This document shows, in pieces, positions 1,801 through 38,613 of a stretch of 39,859 bases of DNA (position 1 is its first letter; each line of letters opens with the position of its first letter). The notes below the pieces were generated by a model. It was not told where the DNA came from. It saw only the letters and a list, made by a program, of their open reading frames with translations, and ran no database searches. Position numbers and translations under genes: made by a program. The DNA is from Hyphomicrobiales bacterium. Its GTDB lineage: Bacteria > Pseudomonadota > Alphaproteobacteria > Rhizobiales > OSC116. Location: contig JABSRZ010000017.1 in the NCBI GenBank assembly GCA_013214705.1, forward strand, positions 1 to 39,859. Reading direction: 5' to 3'.

Positions 1801-3302
1801 TATAATCCCTCCATGCAGGCGGTGTAAAGTTCTGTTAATGTGGTTTGACTCGGGTCTAATTCGCCTATCATGCGGCCTTCTCTCATAATTAGGATGCGGT
1901 CACAAACCTCGAGCATTTCTTCTAATTCTGTCGAAACAAAAATTGATGAAAGGCCCTTTTCGGCTTGGTCCCATATAATTTTAAATATCTGTTGTTTAGC
2001 CTGAACATCAACACCACGGCTGGGTTCGTCAAAAAACATAATTTTTGGGTTGGTATTCATCCAATTGCCAAACACAACCTTCTGCTGATTGCCACCAGAC
2101 AAACTACTGACCGGATCTTCAGCGCTATCGATTTTGATATGAAGATTGTCGACTTGTTTTATAACCCCAGGCCTCTCTGCCGCCTTAGTAATGATGCCGA
2201 GCGGCGCATTTTGCCGCAAGCTGGCCATCGATAAATTGTTGTGAATTGAATGTGCCTGAACCAGACCGACCTCTTTGCGGTTTTCAGGCGTGTAGCCCAA
2301 GCCAATCTCGGTCATATATTGCGGATCAGGGTCTTTAATTTTCTGCCCATCGACGATTATTTCGCCGCTATCAAATGGATCGGCCCCAAAAATAGACCGT
2401 AAAACTTCTGTCCGCCCTGCGCCTAGCATGCCGGCGATGCCCAACACCTCACCTTTAAACAGCTCAAAACTGACGTCTTCATATGCAGGTTTACGGCTTA
2501 AGCCTTGTACTTTCAATATTGCATTATTCGGATCGGCTTGGCTTACTCGTTCGGCAGGGCGATTGTGGGCCACATTTCCGAACATCATATCGACAATGTC
2601 ACTATTTGTAGTTTCAGCCATTTCGACAGTGCCTATATGCTTACCATCTCGAAGCACCGTCACGGTGTCGGCAATTTCGGCCAATTCTGACATTCGGTGA
2701 GAAATATACATCATTGTTGTGCCTTGCTTGCGTAATCGACGTAGCAAACGAAATAACATTTCAACCTCTTTACTAGCAAGGGCACTGGTTGGCTCATCTA
2801 ACAATAACAAAGATGGGTTGAAGCTCATAGCCTTGGCAATTTCAACGGTTTGTTGCTGCCCAACACTTAGAGAGCTGATAATTGCATCTGGGCCGATTTC
2901 AAGTTTCATATCTTCTAATAATATTTTGGTTTTGGTCCTTGCCGATGTCCAATCAATTTTTGAAATACCCAAAAAATGTGATTTAGGCATGCGGCCCAAA
3001 TAAATATTTTCAGCCACCGAAAGTTCGGGAACAAGGCTCAATTCTTGATGAACAGTAACAACATTTGCATTAAGTGCATCAGCAGGAGATGAAAAATGCA
3101 TGTCTTTGCCATTCAAACTCATTTGACCACTGGTTGGCTGTACCACACCCGCGAGTACATTCACTAAAGTCGATTTGCCAGACCCATTTTTGCCCATCAA
3201 CGCATGTATGCGCGATTTTTCGAACCGATGGGTGAATTTATCAAGTGCAACAACGTTTCCATATACTTTGGTCAAACCTTGTGTTTCAACAATTGCGCTC
3301 AT
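1800..3302 (-). CDS. Sugar ABC transporter ATP-binding protein, double ABC domain (RbsA/MglA type)
   Basis: A 500-residue fused two-domain ATPase that powers the adjacent permease. Domain 1 has a canonical Walker A (GKNGSGKST, about 37-45), the signature LSVGQQQ and Walker B LLLLDEP. Domain 2 has the degenerate Walker A typical of this family (GMLGAGRTE), the signature LSGGNQQ and IMFFDEPSRGVDV. The unequal pair of sites is normal for RbsA, MglA and XylG, so one site is expected to do most of the hydrolysis. It follows the binding-protein gene after 62 nt that hold a strong hairpin and overlaps the permease by one base. The substrate cannot be read from the ATPase. Confidence 0.94.
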   Translation of the reverse strand: MSAIVETQGLTKVYGNVVALDKFTHRFEKSRIHALMGKNGSGKSTLVNVLAGVVQPTSGQMSLNGKDMHFSSPADALNANVVTVHQELSLVPELSVAENIYLGRMPKSHFLGISKIDWTSARTKTKILLEDMKLEIGPDAIISSLSVGQQQTVEIAKAMSFNPSLLLLDEPTSALASKEVEMLFRLLRRLRKQGTTMMYISHRMSELAEIADTVTVLRDGKHIGTVEMAETTNSDIVDMMFGNVAHNRPAERVSQADPNNAILKVQGLSRKPAYEDVSFELFKGEVLGIAGMLGAGRTEVLRSIFGADPFDSGEIIVDGQKIKDPDPQYMTEIGLGYTPENRKEVGLVQAHSIHNNLSMASLRQNAPLGIITKAAERPGVIKQVDNLHIKIDSAEDPVSSLSGGNQQKVVFGNWMNTNPKIMFFDEPSRGVDVQAKQQIFKIIWDQAEKGLSSIFVSTELEEMLEVCDRILIMREGRMIGELDPSQTTLTELYTACMEGL

Positions 3303-28416: not shown

Positions 28417-28677
28417 TTAAATGAATACACGGAGCGGCATCAAACCGTTACACGACCAGTCACTAATGGCTTCCATTGCCTTAAGCCAATTAGCATCTTG
28501 AATATCAACCTTGCGCAAACCCAATATTTTGGCCGTGTTGAGTTCGCCTTTGCTATCAACATCAAATGCACCGGTAATCAATGCTTTAATATTGTCACTG
28601 GCATCAGCGCTCCAATCACGCAAACACTTATCAACAAGTGCTTTGGCAACAAGCAGTCTAAGAGAATTTAGCCGCAT
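28417..28677 (-). pseudogene. Fragment of a Mu-like phage DUF3164 protein
   Basis: The frame encodes 86 residues that match the C-terminal part of DUF3164 proteins found in Mu-like prophages: a helix ending in DKCLRDWS, ALITGAFDVDSKGELNTAKILGLRKVDI, then WLKAMEAISD. After that the expected ending (a Tyr/Arg-rich strand) is lost, and a frameshift near 28450 would partly restore it. The N-terminal half is also missing. It overlaps the 3' end of the siroheme synthase remnant by 10 nt, which marks the junction. Not expected to be functional. Confidence 0.6.
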
Positions 28678-29587
28678 TGCATCGATATTATATCGTTTTG
28701 ATTTGCAAGGAAATTTACATTTATAGGTTTTAAATACACCACAAATTCGCCATTGTCTAAATGAGGCTGTATTAAAGTTTCGACATTCAACTCATTGATT
28801 AAATGTATGCACTTCGCATCGCGGCGAGCATAACCCAATATATCTTGCATATCATTGCCATAAATAATGACATCGGCAATGTTGATGAGCCGATGTGCTT
28901 TCAGCGTCAAATCTTCGGCATGGCGCGAAGTTAATTTAATTTCAATCAATTTGCCGGTGCTGGTTGTTTGCTCACCAATTATGCCAAGCAGATATTCTTG
29001 CTTTTGGGTGGCATTTTTTGCCAAAAAAATGTCTATATTTTGCTGTGTGAATACTTCATTCCAAAACCCAAATAATTGTTTAGATTTGGTCATTACGCGT
29101 TTGGCAATCGGCCTAAAATTATAGTGAAACTCCACCAATTCGTCCAAATTGTGCAGCAATAATTGGTTTATTTTTAGGCGTAAATTCCGTGCCAAAACCG
29201 GTGCTTTGCCCGATGTCGAAATGGCAACCATAACATCGCCACGCTTTACCACTGCCGGGGTTATAAAATGCGATATTTCTGGCATATCAACAAAATTACA
29301 AATGATGTTTTGTTTTTGCGCCGCCGCCATAATATTTGCAATCAGCTTTTCATCATTGGTCGCCACAAATACCAGTGATATATCTGCAAGATATTTATCA
29401 GAATATTTACTAACGATTATATCTACACTTTTTGCATATTTTTGAGTTATTTGTTGGCCCAATGTTAGCCATTTAACCTTTGCCCCATCTGGGTTAGCAG
29501 GTTAATTTTGGCTTCAGCCATTTGGCCATTGCCTATTACCAATATGGGTTTTTGATCTAACTTTAAAAATATCGGCATTACATTCAT
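28668..29587 (-). pseudogene. cysG: Siroheme synthase (CysG/Met8-type) broken by a frameshift, with a degenerate methyltransferase domain
   Basis: The start at 29587 (MNVMPIFLKLDQKPILVIGNG, with GGAG 7 nt upstream) opens the NAD-binding domain of precorrin-2 dehydrogenase/ferrochelatase. The frame then shifts at the C-run 29483-29486 (GGGG in the gene); one more G would give LLTQMGAKVKWLTLGQQ and restore the family sequence. The second frame continues with FVATNDE, NFVDMPE and ISTSGKAPVLARNLR, completing the Met8 part. A C-terminal region similar to uroporphyrinogen methyltransferase (LTLKAHRLINIADVIIYG) follows, but GAGPGDP and the RLKGGDPF block are lost, and it stops after about 100 residues beside a phage fragment. 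Siroheme is the cofactor of the NirB in this cluster. It is third in the narK operon, 2 nt after the kinase gene. Confidence 0.75.
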
Positions 29588-29589
29588 CG

Positions 29590-31290
29590 TTAATCTCCAA
29601 CGGCTAATATGGTCACAATAATCATCGCCAAAATGGCCGAAATTGATTGCCAAAATAATATCGGGTTGCGCGCCAATAGCGGCTCTTGGGTTTTGGTATA
29701 AACCTCGTGTTTAGGCTTGCTCAATTCATGTTCTAATTCCGAAAATCGCTCATATCTATCGTTCACATCTTTGGCAACCGATTTTTGCAATATGGCCTCT
29801 ATCCACTCCGGCAAATTGTCATTAATCGAAAGAGCCGAAATATATTTGAGCCGTTTCACATCATATGAATTTTTAAACCCCCGCCCATAAGGCAGTTTAT
29901 GTGTGAGCATTTCATATAATATCACCCCTAATGAATAAAGGTCTGAAGCTCTATCGGCTCTGCCATATAGCAAATATTCTGGCGCGGTATAATCGACGCT
30001 GCCTAAAAGCTGGTTATCTGCGGTGTTTTGTTGTTCATCTAGGCTTGCCACTTGCACAGAGCCTAAATCTATCAGCTTCACCATGCCGCTGCGGTCAATC
30101 ATCACATTGTCAGGTTTCAAATCTCTATGCACCATATCCATACGGTGCAAGCTGCGGATGGCGGCAATGATTTGCAATATTATGGCTTTAACTTCCGATA
30201 GGTCGGGGTTGGGGTGGTTGCCCATCCATTCGCGCAGGCTTTGGCCCTCAATATAATCGGTTACCATATATAGAAATTGCTTAGTTGGCTTGGCAGCATG
30301 ATATTTCACCAGATTCGGCAAGTTTATTTGAGCGCCAATCCATGCCTCTCGCTTAAAGGCATTGATATAAGTTTGGTCATCATCAAAATTAACCGATGGT
30401 GTTTTAATGGCGACATAGTTGTCTTGGCCTTGTGGTTGCGCCAAATACACTTGGCTGCGGCTATTGGTGTGTATTTCTCGTATTATTTTATAACCATCTA
30501 ATATTTGCCCATTTTCTAACAACGGAGGGAATGGCAGGTTTGCTCCGCCGGGCATATTGTCAGGATTAGAAATAGTGGTTAAATCGTCTATTTTTACAAT
30601 TTGGCAAGTCACATCGTCTGGGCTACCGGCGCTTAGTGCCCTGCCGACAATTTGCTTTGCCGCGCCGGGCAAGTTATCGATATTTGCCAATGCGAGTTGT
30701 TTGATATTGGTTGGGCTTACATATTCATGCACACCATCGGTGGTAAAAATCAAGACATCATCTTGGCGCAACGGCACAGTTTTATAGTCCATATCCAGAT
30801 GAATGCCCGTGCCCATAGCGCGGTTTAAAAAACTATGGCCGGTGAAATCCTTTAATATATGATCTTGGGTCAATGGTTCTATTTTGCCATCGCGCACCAG
30901 GCTGATACGGCTATCGCCAACATGAAATATATGCGCTTTGCCGGCTTTTATCACCATCGCGCTTAACGTGCTCACCATGCCAAACTCAGCCGCTTGCCCA
31001 TTTTGTGTTTGGCTGAACATCCAACTATTGGTGGCGTTTAATATTTTGCCAACCGATTTCTTAACCCCCCAACTATTGGGTGTCGAGAAATAATCCTGCA
31101 AGAAACATTTTACACAAGTTTCAGAAGCTTCTTTGGCTTTTGGGCAGGTGCTCATGCCATCGGCAATGGCAATGGCAATGCCTTTGGTAAAGCTTTGCAC
31201 CGGCTCAGGCAGCATGATTCCATAGCTATCCTCATTGCAGGGTTTCAACCCAGCATTCGAATAAGCCCCTATGGAAATTTGCTCCGTCAT
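29590..31290 (-). CDS. Bifunctional PP2C-type phosphatase / Ser-Thr protein kinase of the nitrate cluster
   Basis: 566 residues with two opposing activities in one chain. Residues about 5-235 form a PP2C domain with metal-site aspartates at Asp44 (ADGM), Asp126 (VGDSR), Asp185 (TTDGV) and Asp225/226 (PDDVT). Residues about 262-525 form a protein kinase: Lys296 (VAIK), catalytic HRDLKPDN (388-395), DLG in place of DFG (408-410) and APEYL. The glycine loop is degenerate (REIHTNSRSQVYLA, no GxGxxG). A single membrane helix closes the protein (about 545-562). This fusion is a regular companion of NarK-type nitrate transporters in proteobacterial assimilation clusters; its target is not established to my knowledge. 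It lies 9 nt after narK and 2 nt before cysG. Confidence 0.9.
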   Translation of the reverse strand: MTEQISIGAYSNAGLKPCNEDSYGIMLPEPVQSFTKGIAIAIADGMSTCPKAKEASETCVKCFLQDYFSTPNSWGVKKSVGKILNATNSWMFSQTQNGQAAEFGMVSTLSAMVIKAGKAHIFHVGDSRISLVRDGKIEPLTQDHILKDFTGHSFLNRAMGTGIHLDMDYKTVPLRQDDVLIFTTDGVHEYVSPTNIKQLALANIDNLPGAAKQIVGRALSAGSPDDVTCQIVKIDDLTTISNPDNMPGGANLPFPPLLENGQILDGYKIIREIHTNSRSQVYLAQPQGQDNYVAIKTPSVNFDDDQTYINAFKREAWIGAQINLPNLVKYHAAKPTKQFLYMVTDYIEGQSLREWMGNHPNPDLSEVKAIILQIIAAIRSLHRMDMVHRDLKPDNVMIDRSGMVKLIDLGSVQVASLDEQQNTADNQLLGSVDYTAPEYLLYGRADRASDLYSLGVILYEMLTHKLPYGRGFKNSYDVKRLKYISALSINDNLPEWIEAILQKSVAKDVNDRYERFSELEHELSKPKHEVYTKTQEPLLARNPILFWQSISAILAMIIVTILAVGD

Positions 31291-31299
31291 GTCTATTTA

Positions 31300-32775
31300 T
31301 TACCCAACTTTAATTAGTTCAACACTACCATCTTCTAACACTTCAGCCATATGGCCTACTGGTTCGTTCATAAATATCAATATTAAAACCATTAATATGA
31401 GTGACGATGCACCAATGAATAAAAAGAATGTTGCGGCGCTTACAAATGAATACAGAGTGAGTAAGCATACGCCGCCAACATTGCCATAAGCCCCCACCAT
31501 GCCAGATATTTGGCCCGTCATGCGGCGTTTAATAAGTGGTACATGGGCAAACACTGCGCCACAACCTGCCTGTACAAAAAACGCGCAAAAAACCGTTGCC
31601 AATAATACCAAGACTATATTCCATTGGCTGGTCATTAACGACATAATATAATAGCCAATCGCCAGACCGAATAGAAAAATAATCAAGGTTTTTTTGCGGC
31701 CAAACCGATCACTGACCAAACCACCCACTGGCCGTGCAATTAAATTCATAATGGCAAATGAGGCTGCGATCAGGCCTGCCACAATGGCCGAAAGGCCAAA
31801 CAAATCCATATAATAAAGTGGCAACATAGACACCACAGCCAGCTCAGAGCCAAAAGTCACCATATAAGCTAGGCTCAACAGAGCCACTTGCTTAAATGAA
31901 TATCGTTGAATGTCTGCCACACCTTGGCCAAATACAATTTTGTTAACTTCATATATATGGTAGACCTGATATAGAAATGCCGCCAATAAGCCTATATATA
32001 TGCCGGTGCAAACGCCGCCACTGAGCATATTTAAATTTAGTGGGCTTAGCTTCCAAGTTAGCAACGCCAAGGCCAAAAAAAGTGGCAATTTCATCACCAC
32101 ATATAGATATAAATCGGCTTTGGATGAAATTTCCATCGCGCCGGATTTTTTGGGTTTAAAATAGGTGGCGCCTCTGGGTGTATTGCGCGCCACCCGATAA
32201 AAATATAGTGAATAAACCAGAGCCAAAACACCGGTCATGGCAACGGCATAGCGCCAGCCGTTATCACCTCCAATATACAAAGCTACAAAGGGTAATATCA
32301 TCGCGGCGGCGGCGCTGCCAAAATTGCCCCAACCGCCATATATGCCTTCGGCCAAACCAACCGTTTTGGCCGGGAACCATTCAGAAATCAAGCGAATGCC
32401 AATCACAAAACCCGCGCCCGAAAAACCCAATAAGAAACGAAACAAAGCCAAGGTCTCAAAACTGTTGGCCAGCGCAAAACCAAAACATAAGAAAGCCGAA
32501 ATAAATAACAATAGGGCATAAACCAGACGTGGGCCGAAACGGTCTACAAACATGCCAATGACCACCCGCGCCGGAATGGTAAGCGCTACATTTAAAATAA
32601 GTATGGTGGCCACTTCTTGATGAGATAGGCCCAATTGTTCGCGGATGATGGCCATTAAAGGTGCGTGGTTAAACCACACTAAAAAGCTGATGAAAAATGC
32701 CATCCATGACAGGTGCAACATTTTGGATTGTTTAGAGAATGAGAACAGGTTGATGGTCGATTTTTGGTTATTCAT
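31300..32775 (-). CDS. narK: NarK-type nitrate/nitrite MFS transporter
   Basis: 491 residues with about twelve membrane helices. Nitrate-porter signatures: FLVWFNHAPLM near the N-terminus, IPARVVIGMFVDRFGPR (loop 2-3 motif), GAGFVIGIRLISEWFP and AEGIYGGWGNFGSAAA (the glycine-rich nitrate signature near 140-157), and GMVGAYGNVGGV in the second half. An insertion of about 80 residues between helices 6 and 7 (about 205-285) holds extra hydrophobic stretches. It imports nitrate and perhaps exchanges nitrite for the NasA/NirBD enzymes encoded divergently. It is first in the leftward operon, downstream of a near-consensus sigma-54 promoter at 32841-32856. Confidence in class is high; nitrate versus nitrite preference is not readable. 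Confidence 0.93.
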   Translation of the reverse strand: MNNQKSTINLFSFSKQSKMLHLSWMAFFISFLVWFNHAPLMAIIREQLGLSHQEVATILILNVALTIPARVVIGMFVDRFGPRLVYALLLFISAFLCFGFALANSFETLALFRFLLGFSGAGFVIGIRLISEWFPAKTVGLAEGIYGGWGNFGSAAAAMILPFVALYIGGDNGWRYAVAMTGVLALVYSLYFYRVARNTPRGATYFKPKKSGAMEISSKADLYLYVVMKLPLFLALALLTWKLSPLNLNMLSGGVCTGIYIGLLAAFLYQVYHIYEVNKIVFGQGVADIQRYSFKQVALLSLAYMVTFGSELAVVSMLPLYYMDLFGLSAIVAGLIAASFAIMNLIARPVGGLVSDRFGRKKTLIIFLFGLAIGYYIMSLMTSQWNIVLVLLATVFCAFFVQAGCGAVFAHVPLIKRRMTGQISGMVGAYGNVGGVCLLTLYSFVSAATFFLFIGASSLILMVLILIFMNEPVGHMAEVLEDGSVELIKVG

Positions 32776-32840
32776 TATTTCACTTTGTTATAACTAAATA
32801 GAGCTGAAATGCGTTACATGGCGTTAGATATACCTGCCAT

Positions 32841-32856
32841 TGCAATATCGATGCCA
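32841..32856 (-). promoter_or_regulatory. Sigma-54 promoter for the narK operon
   Basis: On the minus strand TGGCATCGATATTGCA matches the -24/-12 pattern TGGCAC-N5-TTGCW with one mismatch and exact spacing. It lies about 66 nt before the narK start. Confidence 0.65.
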
Positions 32857-32877
32857 CTTTCAAAAGGCGGCTTTTTG

Positions 32878-32897
32878 GCCATATACGTAAATATGGC
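32878..32897. promoter_or_regulatory. 20-bp palindrome between the two sigma-54 promoters
   Basis: gccatat and atatggc make perfect 7-bp arms around acgtaa, about 22 bp beyond the narK -24 box and 117 bp upstream of the nirB -24 box. Position suits an activator site, although it does not match the usual NtrC sequence. Confidence 0.4.
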
Positions 32898-33013
32898 TCA
32901 CCTAATTTGCTTAATTTTTAGTCACATATTTTTTGACGGCTAAATTTTAGGCATCATATTTTTCGCCAGCATAGAGCGCCACGCATTTGTGGGCTTTGCG
33001 GGCATTTTAAAAC

Positions 33014-33029
33014 TGGCACGGTGTTTGCT
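33014..33029 (+). promoter_or_regulatory. Sigma-54 promoter for nirB-nirD-nasA
   Basis: TGGCACGGTGTTTGCT fits TGGCAC-N5-TTGCW at every position. A start near 33040 gives a leader of about 95 nt before the chosen nirB ATG. It implies RpoN-dependent, nitrogen-limited expression. Confidence 0.8.
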
Positions 33030-33135
33030 TTGTATTGAACGGACATAAGATTCATCAGACATGAAATGGTCAAACCAAAAACTCAGATTAACTCTCCCTC
33101 GAATTATTCTGAACCTGTTAAAAAAGGTCAATCGA

Positions 33136-35592
33136 ATGAAGCAGAAACTGGTCATCATAGGCAATGGAATGGCCCCGGGCCGGGCGCTAGAAAAATTGTT
33201 AACCCTCGCGCCCGACTTATATGAAGTCACAATTTTTAACGCCGAGAACCGGGTGAATTATAACCGCATCATGTTGTCACCGGTATTGTCTGGCGAAAAA
33301 AAATTCGAAGAGATTATCATTCATGGTGATGGTTGGTACATTAAAAATAATGTGACATTATATAAAGGTCACAAAATTACCAATATAGACCGTGCCAAAA
33401 AACAAGTGACATCTGAACATGGCATCGTGGCCGATTATGACAAATTAATCATCGCCACAGGTTCAACACCGTTTATCATTCCTGTGCCGGGCCACAAATT
33501 ACCCGGGGTTTTAAGTTATCGCGATTTAGATGACGTGACCGCCATGATGTTAGCGGCTAAAAGCCGTGGTTCTGCTGTGGTCATTGGCGGTGGCTTACTT
33601 GGGCTTGAAGCCGCAGCGGGTTTAAAAGAACAAGGCATGGATGTTACGGTTATTCATTTAATGCCGACGCTAATGGAGCGCCAATTAGACCCGGCTGCAG
33701 GCTATTTGCTGCAACAAGAATTGGAACAACGTGGCATTAAGGTGTTATGCGGTGCAAATACCAAAGAAATCACCAGCGATACCGATGGCAAAGTAGGTGC
33801 CGTGCATTTAGAAGATGGCACAGTGATTCCGGCTTCACTTATTGTTATGGCCGTAGGCATTCGCCCCAATAGCAAGTTAGCGGAACAATCTGGGTTAGAC
33901 GTTAACCGTGGCATCGTGGTCAGCGACAATATGCAAACTTCCGACCCCGATATTTATTCGCTTGGTGAATGCGCCGAGGTTGGCGGCATGTGCTATGGCT
34001 TGGTGGCTCCTCTCTACCAAATGGCCAACATACTTGCAGCGCAGTTAACTGGCGATGAAACCGCTAAATTTGTTGCACAATATACCCCGACCCGCTTAAA
34101 AGTAACTGGCATAGACCTTTATTCGGCTGGCGATTTTGCCGAAGGCGATGACCGCGAAGAAATTGTATTTAGAGATGCCGCGTCTGGGGTTTATAAGCGG
34201 CTCATTCTGAAAGATAATAAAGTTATTGGCGTGGTGCTATATGGCGAAGCATCCGATGGTCCATGGTTTTTTGAAAAATTAAAGAGTGGCGAAAATATCC
34301 GCGAAATACGCGATATGTTGATATTTGGGCAAAATGCCGTATTGGGGAGCACCAACGCGGACCCGCTCGCCGCCGTTACAGCCTTGCCAGATGAGGCAGA
34401 AATTTGTGGTTGTAATGGCATTTCCAAAGGTGACATTGTCACCACAATAACCAAAAAAGGCCTTACAGATTTGGCCGCCGTAAGATCCCATACAAAAGCC
34501 TCGGCCTCTTGTGGCAGCTGCACTGGTTTGGTTGAGCAATTAATGACCCTCACCCTAGGCGACAGTTTTAATGCCAATGCGGTGCAAAGCCTATGCAGCT
34601 GCACCGAGCTTGGCCATAGCGATGTGAGGCGCTTAATCAAAGCTAAACAGTTAAAAACCATTCCGCAAGTGATGCAGGAGCTAGAATGGCAAACATCATG
34701 CGGGTGTGTGAAATGTCGCCCTGCGCTGAATTATTATTTGGTGGCCGATTGGCCAAATGAATATGCCGATGATTACCAGTCGCGGTTTATCAACGAGCGG
34801 GTGCATGCCAACATTCAAAAAGATGGTACATATTCGGTTGTGCCGCGCATGTGGGGCGGCGTTACTTCTGCTAAAGAGTTACGCGCCATTGCCGATGTGG
34901 TCGATAAGTTCGATATTCCGACAGTTAAATGCACAGGCGGTCAACGCATCGATATGCTGGGCATAAAAAAACAAGATCTACCCGCAGTGTGGAAAGATTT
35001 GGGTGAAGCCGGCTTTGTGTCTGGCCACGCCTATGCCAAAGGGTTACGGACAGTTAAAACCTGCGTGGGTACCGATTGGTGCCGTTTCGGCACGCAAGAT
35101 AGCACCGGCCTAGGCATAAAGTTAGAAAAATTTATGTGGGGCAGTTGGACACCTGCCAAATTAAAATTAGCCGTTTCAGGTTGCCCGCGTAATTGTTCAG
35201 AGGCCACCTGTAAAGACATCGGCGTAGTATGTATCGACTCGGGTTATGAAATTCACATTGGCGGCGCCGCTGGGTTACACATTCGAGGCACGAAAATATT
35301 AGGCAATGTAAGCACCGAAAAAGAAGTTATGGAAGTTATTGTTGCCGTTACCCAAATGTATCGTGAACAAGGCCATTATCTAGAACGCATTTACAAATGG
35401 ATGGATAGAGTCGGGCTAGAGGAAATACAAAAGCAAATCATGGACGATTTAGACACCCGCGTCGCCTACTATAATGGCTTTGTTTATAGCCAAAAATTTG
35501 CCCAAGTCGACCCGTGGAGTGAGAGAGTATCGGGTGTCGATAAACATGAGTTTAACCCACTCGCCACCCTAGCCTTGGAGCCAGCAGAATGA
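33136..35592 (+). CDS. nirB: Assimilatory nitrite reductase [NAD(P)H], large subunit
   Basis: 818 residues from the ATG at 33136, giving the family start (KLVIIGNGMAPGRALEKLL) with AAAGG 9 nt upstream; an in-frame ATG at 33061 would add 25 unrelated residues and has no ribosome site. Order of domains: FAD/NAD(P)-dependent reductase (about 1-300; VVIGGGLLGLEAA), two BFD-type [2Fe-2S] cysteine regions (about 424-470 and 485-540; CGCNG...CGSC and CSC...CGCVKC), then the siroheme/[4Fe-4S] reductase half with ligands in TCVGTDWC (about 641) and GCPRNC (about 684). It reduces nitrite to ammonium in the cytoplasm. It overlaps nirD by 4 nt (ATGA). It needs siroheme, while the local cysG copy is frameshifted. 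Confidence 0.95.
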   Translation: MKQKLVIIGNGMAPGRALEKLLTLAPDLYEVTIFNAENRVNYNRIMLSPVLSGEKKFEEIIIHGDGWYIKNNVTLYKGHKITNIDRAKKQVTSEHGIVADYDKLIIATGSTPFIIPVPGHKLPGVLSYRDLDDVTAMMLAAKSRGSAVVIGGGLLGLEAAAGLKEQGMDVTVIHLMPTLMERQLDPAAGYLLQQELEQRGIKVLCGANTKEITSDTDGKVGAVHLEDGTVIPASLIVMAVGIRPNSKLAEQSGLDVNRGIVVSDNMQTSDPDIYSLGECAEVGGMCYGLVAPLYQMANILAAQLTGDETAKFVAQYTPTRLKVTGIDLYSAGDFAEGDDREEIVFRDAASGVYKRLILKDNKVIGVVLYGEASDGPWFFEKLKSGENIREIRDMLIFGQNAVLGSTNADPLAAVTALPDEAEICGCNGISKGDIVTTITKKGLTDLAAVRSHTKASASCGSCTGLVEQLMTLTLGDSFNANAVQSLCSCTELGHSDVRRLIKAKQLKTIPQVMQELEWQTSCGCVKCRPALNYYLVADWPNEYADDYQSRFINERVHANIQKDGTYSVVPRMWGGVTSAKELRAIADVVDKFDIPTVKCTGGQRIDMLGIKKQDLPAVWKDLGEAGFVSGHAYAKGLRTVKTCVGTDWCRFGTQDSTGLGIKLEKFMWGSWTPAKLKLAVSGCPRNCSEATCKDIGVVCIDSGYEIHIGGAAGLHIRGTKILGNVSTEKEVMEVIVAVTQMYREQGHYLERIYKWMDRVGLEEIQKQIMDDLDTRVAYYNGFVYSQKFAQVDPWSERVSGVDKHEFNPLATLALEPAE

Positions 35593-35921
35593 ACGCCATG
35601 ACAGAAAATTGGGTCGAAATCGGTAGCATAAATGATATACCTTTACGCGGTGCACGTTGTGTTGAGCATGGCGATATGACCATTGCCATTTTCCGCACCA
35701 GTGATGACAAAATTTTTGCGCTCGAAGATAAATGCCCGCATAAAAACGGCCCGTTGAGCGATGGCATTGTGCATGATGGCTGTGTCACATGCCCCTTACA
35801 TAACTGGGTTATTTCGCTGGAAACTGGCCAAGCTCAGGGCGCAGATAAAGGCCAGAGCCTGTCATTTCCCGTGCAAATGAATGGCAATAAAATATTGTTA
35901 TCACTTAGAGCTAAATCATAG
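35589..35921 (+). CDS. nirD: Nitrite reductase small subunit, Rieske-like
   Basis: 110 residues, typical for NirD. It keeps a full Rieske ligand set, CPHKNG (C-x-H) near 49-54 and CPLHNW (C-x2-H) near 65-70; some NirD proteins have lost these, so this one could bind a [2Fe-2S] cluster. It pairs with NirB in NAD(P)H-dependent nitrite reduction. Translation is coupled to nirB through an ATGA overlap, and nasA follows. Confidence 0.92.
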   Translation: MNAMTENWVEIGSINDIPLRGARCVEHGDMTIAIFRTSDDKIFALEDKCPHKNGPLSDGIVHDGCVTCPLHNWVISLETGQAQGADKGQSLSFPVQMNGNKILLSLRAKS

Positions 35922-35934
35922 ATCGGCATATTCA

Positions 35935-38613
35935 GTGACCTCGCTAGCTTCAAACATCAAAACCACCTGCCCCTATTGTGGTGTCGGTTGTGGCATAACG
36001 GCCAGCGTCAGCGACGAGTTGGTCAGCATTACAGGCGATGCAGATCACCCGGCCAATAATGGTATTTTATGTTCCAAAGGCATGGCCTTGGCCGAAACGC
36101 TCGACCATACAGATAGATTGCTCAGCCCCATTGTGAATGGCCAACAAACCAATTGGGAATTTGCGCTCAAAAAAGTGGCCCAAGGTTTTAAACAATGCAT
36201 CGATAAATATGGGCCTGATAGCGTGGCTTTTTATGTATCAGGCCAATTGCTGACTGAAGATTATTATGTCGCCAATAAGCTGATGAAAGGCTATATTGGT
36301 AGCGGCAATATCGACACCAATTCGAGGCTCTGCATGTCATCGAGTGTTGCTGGACATAAACGGGCTTTCGGTGCCGACATTGTACCGGGGAATTATGAAG
36401 ATTGGGATGAAACGGACCTAGCCGTTCTGGTCGGCAGCAACGCCGCGTGGTGTCACCCAATATTGTTTAGCCGTTTGCTCAAAGCTCAAAAAACCCGTGG
36501 CGCAAAAATTGTCATTATCGACCCACGCCATACCGCTTCGTGCGACATGGCCGATCTGCATCTGCCGCTTCTGCCCGGGACAGATGTGGTGTTATTTAAC
36601 GGCCTGCTAAGTTATTTGGCGCAGCATAACGCTATAGATGCACATTATGTGGCCACCCATACAAATGGCATGAGCAAGGCACTTAAGCTGGCAAACCAAG
36701 ACGCGCCAGACATTGCCACAGTGGCACAAAAATGTGGCTTAGATGCCGCAAAAGTCTCAGAATTTTACCAGTTATTTGTTGATAACGAACGGGCGTTGTC
36801 AATATACTCGCAAGGGGTAAATCAATCTTCATCTGGCACAGATAAAGTCAACTCCATTATAAATTGCCACCTTTATACAGGCCGCATCGGCAAGCCGGGC
36901 ATGGGTCCATTTTCGGTAACCGGCCAGCCCAATGCCATGGGCGGGCGCGAGGTTGGCGGCTTGGCCAATGTGCTGGCTGCGCATATGGATTTCACACCCA
37001 AAAATGTCGATTTGGTTTCAAGATTTTGGGATGCGCCTAACATTGCCACTCAAGGCGGCGCTAAGGCGGTCGACTTATTCGATAAAATTGCGGATGGAAA
37101 AATAAAAGCCGTATGGATTATGGCCACCAACCCGGCGGTTTCAATGCCCAATGCCAATAAAGTGCGTGACGCGTTGGCAAAATGCCCGTTGGTTGTGGTT
37201 TCAGATTGTATGAATAATACCGACAGTATGCAATATGCCGATGTTAAATTGCCGGCGATGACTTGGGGCGAAAAAGACGGCACTGTCACCAATTCTGAAC
37301 GTCGTATATCGCGCCAACGCAGGTTTTTAGACCCCGCTGGCATGTCAAAACCCGATTGGTGGATTATTTGCCAAGTTGCAAAATATATGGGTTTCGAAAA
37401 ATCCTTCGCCTATCAAAATGTATCGGAAATATACCAAGAACATAGCCAACTATCGGCGTTTGAAAATGACGGCGAAAATTTGCGGGCGTTCAACATCGGC
37501 CTACATGCCGACATATCTGAAAAAGACTATAATGAAATGGCGCCCACACAATGGCCAATTACCGAGGCTACGCCCTATGGCACTGAACGTATGTTGCAAG
37601 ATGGCGAGTTTTTCAACCAAACCCGCAAAGCCAACTTTGTGGCCATCAAACACCAAGCGCCCGTGCATGAAACCAACCAAGATTACCCGCTTATTCTAAA
37701 TTCTGGCCGTATACGAGACCAGTGGCATACCATGAGCCGCACCGGAAAATCGGCCAAACTCAACAACCAATTTTCCGAACCATTTGTATACATTTCCGCC
37801 CAAGATGCCCAAAGATTTGGCGTTAAAGATAATGATTTTGTGCAAATTTTTAGCTGGTGGGGCAAGGCATTGGTGCGCGCCTATATCGATGAAAAACAAC
37901 CAGACGGTCAAATATTCATGCCGATGCATTGGACTGAGATATATTCATCAGCGGCGGTCATTGGCCGTTTGGTAAACCCAGCTACTGACAGCGTTTCTGG
38001 CCAACCAGAGCTAAAACATACGCCGGTTAGCCTTAAAGTTTGGCGGCCAGCGTGGCATGGGTTCTATATCAGCCACCAAAAGCTCGCCCCGGCGGAGTTA
38101 ACGGCCGATAAACAAATAAAATATTGGGCATATAATTGCCAAAATGGTTGCCACATATTAAATTTGGCAGGAGTTGGCGAAGTTGCAGATGTGGGCATTA
38201 TTGATCAGTTAAAAACTTTCGCTAAGAGCAAGTTATTAAGTTATGAAGACAGTGTAGGCGGCCATTACCGATATGCCAATGTGGAAAATAATCGACTAAA
38301 AAGTTGTTTTGTGGCAACAAATCAAGGTGAATTACCGCCACTCGAATGGCTACAAAACCAAATGAGCCGTAAGCTCGATATAGCAGATAAATTGAGTTAT
38401 TTATTGTCGGGTATAAGTCAAGATAAGGTACCAAATTTAGGGCCGATCGTTTGTTCATGCCTTGGTATCTACCAACAACAGATAAAAGATAGCATCAAAG
38501 CCAACGGCCTAACCAGTGTTGATCAAGTTGTAGATTTGTTAAAAGCCGGTAGCAATTGCGGCTCGTGCCTTAGCGAAATTAACCAATTATTGCCGCAACG
38601 ATCTGCGGTATAA
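35935..38613 (+). CDS. nasA: Assimilatory nitrate reductase, molybdopterin catalytic subunit with C-terminal BFD domain
   Basis: 892 residues from the GTG at 35935, 13 nt after nirD. The open frame reaches back to an ATG at 35881, but that would overlap nirD by 41 nt and add residues outside the family; neither start has a strong ribosome site. [4Fe-4S] ligands are CPYCGVGC (from about residue 12) and GILCSKG. The molybdopterin-binding body shows SRLCMSSSVAGHKRAFG, SNAAWCHPILF, GPFSVTGQPNAMGGREVGG and, near 590, SGRIRDQWHTMSRTGKS. The last 55 residues form a BFD-type [2Fe-2S] domain (CSCLG...GSNCGSC). It reduces nitrate to nitrite in the cytoplasm for NirBD. No separate NasB/NasC electron-transfer subunit lies in the window. 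Confidence 0.94.
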   Translation: MTSLASNIKTTCPYCGVGCGITASVSDELVSITGDADHPANNGILCSKGMALAETLDHTDRLLSPIVNGQQTNWEFALKKVAQGFKQCIDKYGPDSVAFYVSGQLLTEDYYVANKLMKGYIGSGNIDTNSRLCMSSSVAGHKRAFGADIVPGNYEDWDETDLAVLVGSNAAWCHPILFSRLLKAQKTRGAKIVIIDPRHTASCDMADLHLPLLPGTDVVLFNGLLSYLAQHNAIDAHYVATHTNGMSKALKLANQDAPDIATVAQKCGLDAAKVSEFYQLFVDNERALSIYSQGVNQSSSGTDKVNSIINCHLYTGRIGKPGMGPFSVTGQPNAMGGREVGGLANVLAAHMDFTPKNVDLVSRFWDAPNIATQGGAKAVDLFDKIADGKIKAVWIMATNPAVSMPNANKVRDALAKCPLVVVSDCMNNTDSMQYADVKLPAMTWGEKDGTVTNSERRISRQRRFLDPAGMSKPDWWIICQVAKYMGFEKSFAYQNVSEIYQEHSQLSAFENDGENLRAFNIGLHADISEKDYNEMAPTQWPITEATPYGTERMLQDGEFFNQTRKANFVAIKHQAPVHETNQDYPLILNSGRIRDQWHTMSRTGKSAKLNNQFSEPFVYISAQDAQRFGVKDNDFVQIFSWWGKALVRAYIDEKQPDGQIFMPMHWTEIYSSAAVIGRLVNPATDSVSGQPELKHTPVSLKVWRPAWHGFYISHQKLAPAELTADKQIKYWAYNCQNGCHILNLAGVGEVADVGIIDQLKTFAKSKLLSYEDSVGGHYRYANVENNRLKSCFVATNQGELPPLEWLQNQMSRKLDIADKLSYLLSGISQDKVPNLGPIVCSCLGIYQQQIKDSIKANGLTSVDQVVDLLKAGSNCGSCLSEINQLLPQRSAV

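Follow-up and report, generated by a model that had tools for sequence, protein, structure and literature searches.

The window analysed here spans 39,859 nucleotides and corresponds to contig C9 of G000, a genome of 3.5 Mb and 98.9% completeness. In this window a narK-type transporter gene and nirB are transcribed away from each other across a gap of 360 bp (32776-33135; Table 1). The nirB arm continues with nirD and a nasA-type reductase gene, and the narK arm with a gene fusing a PP2C phosphatase to a Ser/Thr kinase, followed by a cysG-like gene. The nasA-type gene was named from its context; the top models for its ORF were Fdh-alpha and NasC, each scoring under its own cut-off. The longest nirB ORF starts at 33061, but the start was best placed at 33136, because the match in the congeners G001 and G005 begins at query residue 1 and its open frame (816 aa) offers no longer start. 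The first ~37 residues of the cysG-like gene (28668-29590, minus strand) lie in another frame than the 264-aa ORF. By eye, the G001 homologue is unbroken and encodes 330 aa (L110, 7566-8558); the break in the window is either a frameshift or an assembly error.

Table 1 Genes and regulatory features around the narK-nirB gap (positions in the window; bit scores are given against model cut-offs for genes and for the glnB/glnK matrix for sites A and B)
Feature	Position	Strand	Remarks
cysG-N-terminal-type siroheme gene	28668..29462	-	TIGR01470, 106.2 against cut-off 62.3; frame broken near the start
PP2C phosphatase and Ser/Thr kinase fusion, narK arm	29590..31290	-	Pkinase and PP2C_2 above cut-offs
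narK-type nitrate/nitrite MFS transporter	31300..32775	-	TIGR00886, 322.3 against cut-off 311.7
Sigma-54 box of the narK-kinase-cysG arm, TGGCATCGATATTGCA	32841..32856	-	1 mismatch to TGGCACN5TTGCW
Palindrome GCCATAT-N6-ATATGGC, 7-bp arms around 6 nt	32878..32897		Probably not the enhancer
Predicted NtrC-type site A, GCTTAATTTTTAGTC	32909..32923		16.0 bits; counterparts in G001, G002, G005 and G004
Predicted NtrC-type site B, GGCTAAATTTTAGGC	32938..32952		18.9 bits; counterparts in G001, G002, G005 and G004
Sigma-54 (-24/-12) box of nirB-nirD-nasA, TGGCACGGTGTTTGCT	33014..33029	+	0 mismatches to TGGCACN5TTGCW
nirB, nitrite reductase large subunit	33136..35592	+	TIGR02374, 898.9 bits against cut-off 578.35
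nirD, nitrite reductase small subunit	35589..35921	+	TIGR02378, 94.1 against cut-off 74.65
nasA-type assimilatory nitrate reductase	35881..38613	+	Named from context; true start may be internal to the ORF

A sequence-only reading of this DNA had proposed a perfect -24/-12 box ahead of nirB and a second box with one mismatch ahead of narK. Both were found as described, with GG at -24, GC at -12 and the correct spacing. The exact pattern TGGCAYN5TTGCW occurred in the window at these two boxes only, against 0.21 matches expected, and just one of 100 shuffles reached two. When two mismatches were tolerated, 36 matches were found for 30.3 expected, which is chance level; the case therefore rests on the strict pattern. 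Across the whole genome, this pattern matched 18 times compared with once for a reversed control pattern, and on inspection roughly nine of its 18 matches were intergenic, the one at glnB-glnA among them. Four congeners kept both boxes, as seen in an alignment of G001, G002 and G005 and in a locus scan of G004. Judged by eye, the alignment shows retained boxes around an interval much of which has diverged. Neither nirB nor narK had a match in G003, the fifth congener. Rarity of the exact pattern and conservation at both genes thus supported a divergent pair of sigma-54 promoters.

The same reading had reported no standard NtrC site between the promoters. This was right for the enteric type, since TGCACYN5RGTGCA gave no match in 32776-33135 with up to three mismatches, and it accounts for the site having been missed; the enteric consensus is not defining for alphaproteobacterial NtrC. 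An alphaproteobacterial NtrC consensus from RegPrecise, YGCMN4TTN2TRGCA, is quoted in the accessible part of PMC5424462. It recovered site B at two mismatches and left site A out of its matches; with 115 matches in the window for 91 expected it was unspecific, and it was rejected as a direct test of the sites.

A repeat search of the gap returned, as the longest direct repeat listed there, a conserved element. Its two copies, sites A and B, are 15-bp Fis-like palindromes 29 bp apart. To describe this type of site, a palindromic motif search was run with the nitrate region held out, using the 220 bp that precede the sigma-54 box at glnB in five genomes and at glnK in four. The gln promoters of G000 itself are among these nine sequences, and the congeners are not independent. 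The best de novo 17-mer was TGnYTAAAnTTTARnCA (Y and R denoting mixed positions), with about 25 sites in the nine sequences. When the 15-bp matrix was run over the ~39,845 positions of the window, site B (32938) ranked first and site A (32909) second, followed by position 29165 with 13.7 bits. Of 2000 column-permuted matrices, none ranked the second gap site 2 or better, four ranked it 10 or better and 39 ranked it 50 or better. A scan of 153,707 positions of G000 DNA, partly overlapping one another, found nothing above 15.3 bits outside the gap and a single other pair of sites 27-33 bp apart with at least 12 bits each, in locus L138. Elsewhere in G000, six intergenic sigma-54 promoters gave best scores of 8.2, 3.9, 5.5, 5.0, 3.0 and 11.1 bits. 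A relaxed single motif, GNYTAWWWWWTARNC, showed no genome-wide enrichment: in G000 it matched 49 times and its reversed control 44 times, and in five other genomes its counts fell below those of the control. Judged from the sequence, the enhancer is more likely to be this pair of 15-bp sites than the palindrome next to it.

The position of the pair was then compared with that at the gln promoters, taking the first T of the box as -26 and measuring to site centres. The sites are centred at -95 and -124 relative to nirB and at -86 and -115 relative to narK, and their spacing is 29 bp in G000, G001, G002, G005 and G004 (in the last at 3121/3150). Pairs were also found at glnK, at -110/-139 in G000, G001 and G005 (29 bp) and at -108/-136 in G004 (28 bp), and at glnB, at -95/-115 in G000 and G005, -94/-114 in G001 and -63/-96 in G004; glnB of G003 had a single weak site of 11.2 bits. 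At glnB of G000, G001 and G005 (L142, L143 and L144) the two sites are ~20 bp apart, as against 28-29 bp at glnK and in the nitrate gap. Enteric glnA has an NtrC/sigma-54 promoter with paired sites at about -108 and -140, and NtrC enhancers usually consist of two sites at distances of this order. Like enteric glnA, the gap combines a -24/-12 box with a pair of sites spaced by almost three helical turns, some 85-140 bp upstream. Unlike it, the sites are AT-rich Fis-like palindromes rather than the TGCAC type, and one pair faces two promoters.

The genome encodes the proteins that such an enhancer would need. RpoN was found in four of the six genomes of the genus, G000 included; G002 and G005 gave no rpoN match although both carry sigma-54 boxes, probably through missing contigs, because both genomes are incomplete. 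The NtrC of G000 scored 653.9 against a curated cut-off of 558.6 and has the GAFTGA loop, which is absent from NtrX, and its gene adjoins ntrB and dusB (neighbours named by eye). The operons glnBA and glnK-amtB are usual NtrC targets; an element common to both therefore makes NtrC the best candidate, and on this evidence the activator is most likely NtrC. The suggestion of the sequence-only reading that the activator might differ from NtrC found no support, as two copies of the 15-bp palindrome found ahead of glnB-glnA and glnK-amtB in this genus lie between the boxes. Its view that the layout lets one activator serve both operons gained support. We consider it very probable that the gap contains a single NtrC enhancer between two sigma-54 promoters pointing away from each other, an arrangement that would switch both arms together under nitrogen limitation.

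From these observed features we infer NtrC binding, looping, transcription starts and a nitrogen response along the following lines. Under nitrogen limitation, NtrB would phosphorylate NtrC, and NtrC dimers on sites A and B would assemble into an active oligomer. The oligomer would then loop to the sigma-54 polymerase waiting at either promoter and use ATP for opening. Nitrate uptake through the narK arm and nitrite and nitrate reduction through the nirBD-nasA arm would be expected to rise together.

Three other explanations were weighed. The sigma-54 promoters could be driven by another enhancer-binding protein, such as a LuxO-like protein of 482 aa, a regulator of 549 aa or proteins of the FlbD and DctD types. 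G000 has eight strong sigma-54 activator domains, and five of the eight proteins, NtrC being one, carry a GAFTGA or GSFTGA loop. However, none of these domains is encoded on the window's contig, the motif of sites A and B is common to glnBA and glnK-amtB, and no comparable pair precedes dctP or two flagellar-type promoters, so that we regard this explanation as very unlikely. Another possibility is that genuine NtrC sites act on main promoters of the sigma-70 type, the mode reported for the Rhodobacter and Caulobacter proteins; we consider this highly improbable. Sigma-70-type NtrC is known in other alphaproteobacteria (PMC10274813, accessible part), and three weak sigma-70-like sites were found in 32700-33200 for 1.4 expected, but the best of them is wrongly oriented and lies inside the nirB leader, the NtrC of G000 keeps GAFTGA, rpoN is present and both boxes are conserved. 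Finally, an unknown activator binding the 20-bp palindrome between the boxes is barely credible: the palindrome exists, with the arms described, but it is one of eight inverted-repeat pairs listed in the 360 bp, it is absent from the three aligned congeners (G001, G002 and G005) where the boxes and sites A and B remain, only ~22-41 bp separate it from the narK box, and no 15-mer starting at 32871-32900 exceeds 1.3 bits under the glnB/glnK matrix. With neither conservation nor a good fit to the regulator motif, it was rejected as the enhancer.

To see how far the divergent layout extends, narK-like proteins were sought at E <=1e-90 in 297 genomes of the order. They were found in 21, and in 11 of these the fetched locus had nirB divergent from narK; the 11 loci span five family labels (f1, f12, f23, f26 and f34). 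All 11 had a sigma-54 box on each side with up to two mismatches and at least one site of at least 12 bits in between, a count that leaves aside the narK loci of G005 and G130, which end before the gap, and that of G051, left unjudged. The two-mismatch scan ran past narK to the kinase gene in G000, G004 and G005, with the boxes nearest nirB unaffected. A stricter rule asked for both boxes with at most one mismatch, 100-350 bp apart, and a site of at least 12 bits between them; with bounds corrected in G000 and G004, 10 of the 11 loci complied, compared with 0 of 4400 dinucleotide shuffles. The exception was G027, in which the nirB box has two mismatches. In G016, whose NirB is 54% identical to that of the window, three sites 28 and 32 bp apart occupy the same place. 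Four further loci (G233, G038, G079 and G192) contained a narK-side box with one mismatch and NtrC-like sites, with no nirB in the locus, and the narK loci of G013, G281 and G136 had no box. At a contig end carrying nirB in G051, two divergent boxes with one mismatch each lie 266 bp apart, with no site of 13.5 bits or more.

Two further observations concern the congeners. In G004, the ends of contigs C153 and C119 encode an N-terminal part of NirB 60% identical and a C-terminal part 79% identical to the window's protein; there are either two nirB genes or a mosaic, though the boxes in the promoter gap are spaced as in the window. In G001 (L169, contig C46, 3178-3331), an ORF of 456 aa is preceded by an exact sigma-54 box together with two NtrC-type sites spaced 30 bp, and is a possible further NtrC target.

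Nitrate-responsive antitermination of the NasST or NasR type was considered as an additional layer of control. A search of G000 for an ANTAR regulator of the NasT type gave no match. The control genomes of the first search gave none either, and 61 genomes of relatives served as the positive control: an ANTAR match was found in 21 of them, and within 10 kb of a nirB match in 10 (in G024 this match covers the first half of NirB only). None of these ten was among the 21 narK genomes, five of the ten being listed as searched without a match. Nine of the 11 genomes with the divergent layout had no ANTAR match, the exceptions being G001 and G004 (weak). In G005, the ANTAR protein (L176) is 220 aa long and carries an AmiR_N domain, and is therefore not NasT; that of G004 is similar and also of 220 aa. 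The G001 match closes an ABC-transporter operon (NMT1_2-permease-ATPase-ANTAR; L168, contig C23, 4447-9582) that has an NtrC-type pair 28 bp apart and a one-mismatch box upstream and probably represents a second nitrogen operon, one encoding a NasT-like protein. The nirB leader of the window, taken from the expected start to nirB, folded no better than shuffled sequences (z -0.50) and contained neither a terminator nor an Rfam match, which makes antitermination at nirB unlikely. Without an ANTAR regulator, a terminator or an unusual leader fold, this candidate was rejected.

An early survey of 32 loci had shown few boxes within 600 bp of nirB, from which came the idea that sigma-54 is used only where NasT is missing. 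A survey of rhizobial nirB loci covered the 6 kb upstream of nirB in the 68 of 80 loci longer than 14 kb, which are partly close relatives of one another. A sigma-54 box on the nirB strand with at most one mismatch lay in non-ORF DNA in 62 of the 68 (36 exact), compared with 3 for the other strand and 0 for the reversed pattern. Because the boxes lie further upstream in these 62 loci, the idea was dropped: the lack of NasT is no sign that sigma-54 took its place. The window resembles the sigma-54-controlled nrt/nas operons of rhizobia such as Rhizobium and Mesorhizobium in having a sigma-54 box upstream on the nirB strand. The rhizobial loci differ in that the box precedes a transporter gene upstream of nirB (in the six loci opened, the next large ORF encoded an NMT1_2 protein in four and an MFS_1 protein in two) and no divergent narK arm was seen.

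Experimental work on related systems points in the same direction, as far as the accessible parts of the papers go. In Paracoccus denitrificans, altering the NtrC site before nasT in the nasTSABGHC cluster abolished nearly all induction (PMC5424462). NtrC control of nitrate assimilation, predicted here for G000, is thus alike in the two; P. denitrificans has the extra layer of nitrate-responsive NasST antitermination (PMC5424462), whereas G000 is without an ANTAR match. Caulobacter NtrC gave ChIP peaks at glnBA, glnK, nasT and narK, and its motif resembles both the Fis motif and the E. coli NtrC motif (PMC10274813), in agreement with the Fis-like sites described here. Unlike the NtrC of G000, Caulobacter NtrC has no GAFTGA and is reported to work at sigma-70 promoters (PMC10274813). 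Published predictions already place nitrite and nitrate reductase genes under sigma-54 control across Pseudomonadota (PMC12316311). Control of nitrate assimilation by sigma-54 and NtrC is known from the literature; what differs is the single predicted enhancer shared by two arms, together with the lack of a NasT-type match in G000. Titles and abstract openings, with most subscription journals outside reach, held no description of the divergent layout.

The PP2C/Ser-Thr kinase fusion behind narK was also present in G016 and G027 (L170, 2791-4503; L171, 3287-4990), and its position alone makes it a candidate for an alternative nitrate-sensing route; titles and abstract openings on kinases in nas clusters contained nothing to the point. 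A widespread NasT-free form in the order, in which one NtrC enhancer serves divergent arms, antitermination was dropped and control by nitrate or activity passed to the kinase fusion, is a speculative reading that we regard as rather unlikely.

Collectively, the gap is a real and conserved regulatory region that can be read in functional terms; its best explanation is ordinary NtrC/sigma-54 nitrogen control, acting through a lineage-type site. The promoters of the sequence-only reading were most likely right, and its palindrome and unknown activator most likely wrong. The unknown activator is replaced by a named, testable candidate, and the genus-specific NtrC motif offers a means of reading nitrogen regulons in OCS116-type bacteria. 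From the layout, these bacteria are predicted to switch on nitrate use in response to nitrogen shortage alone, while NasT-bearing relatives should respond to nitrate too. This predicted difference between NasT-free and NasT-bearing bacteria would affect the timing of their competition for nitrate.
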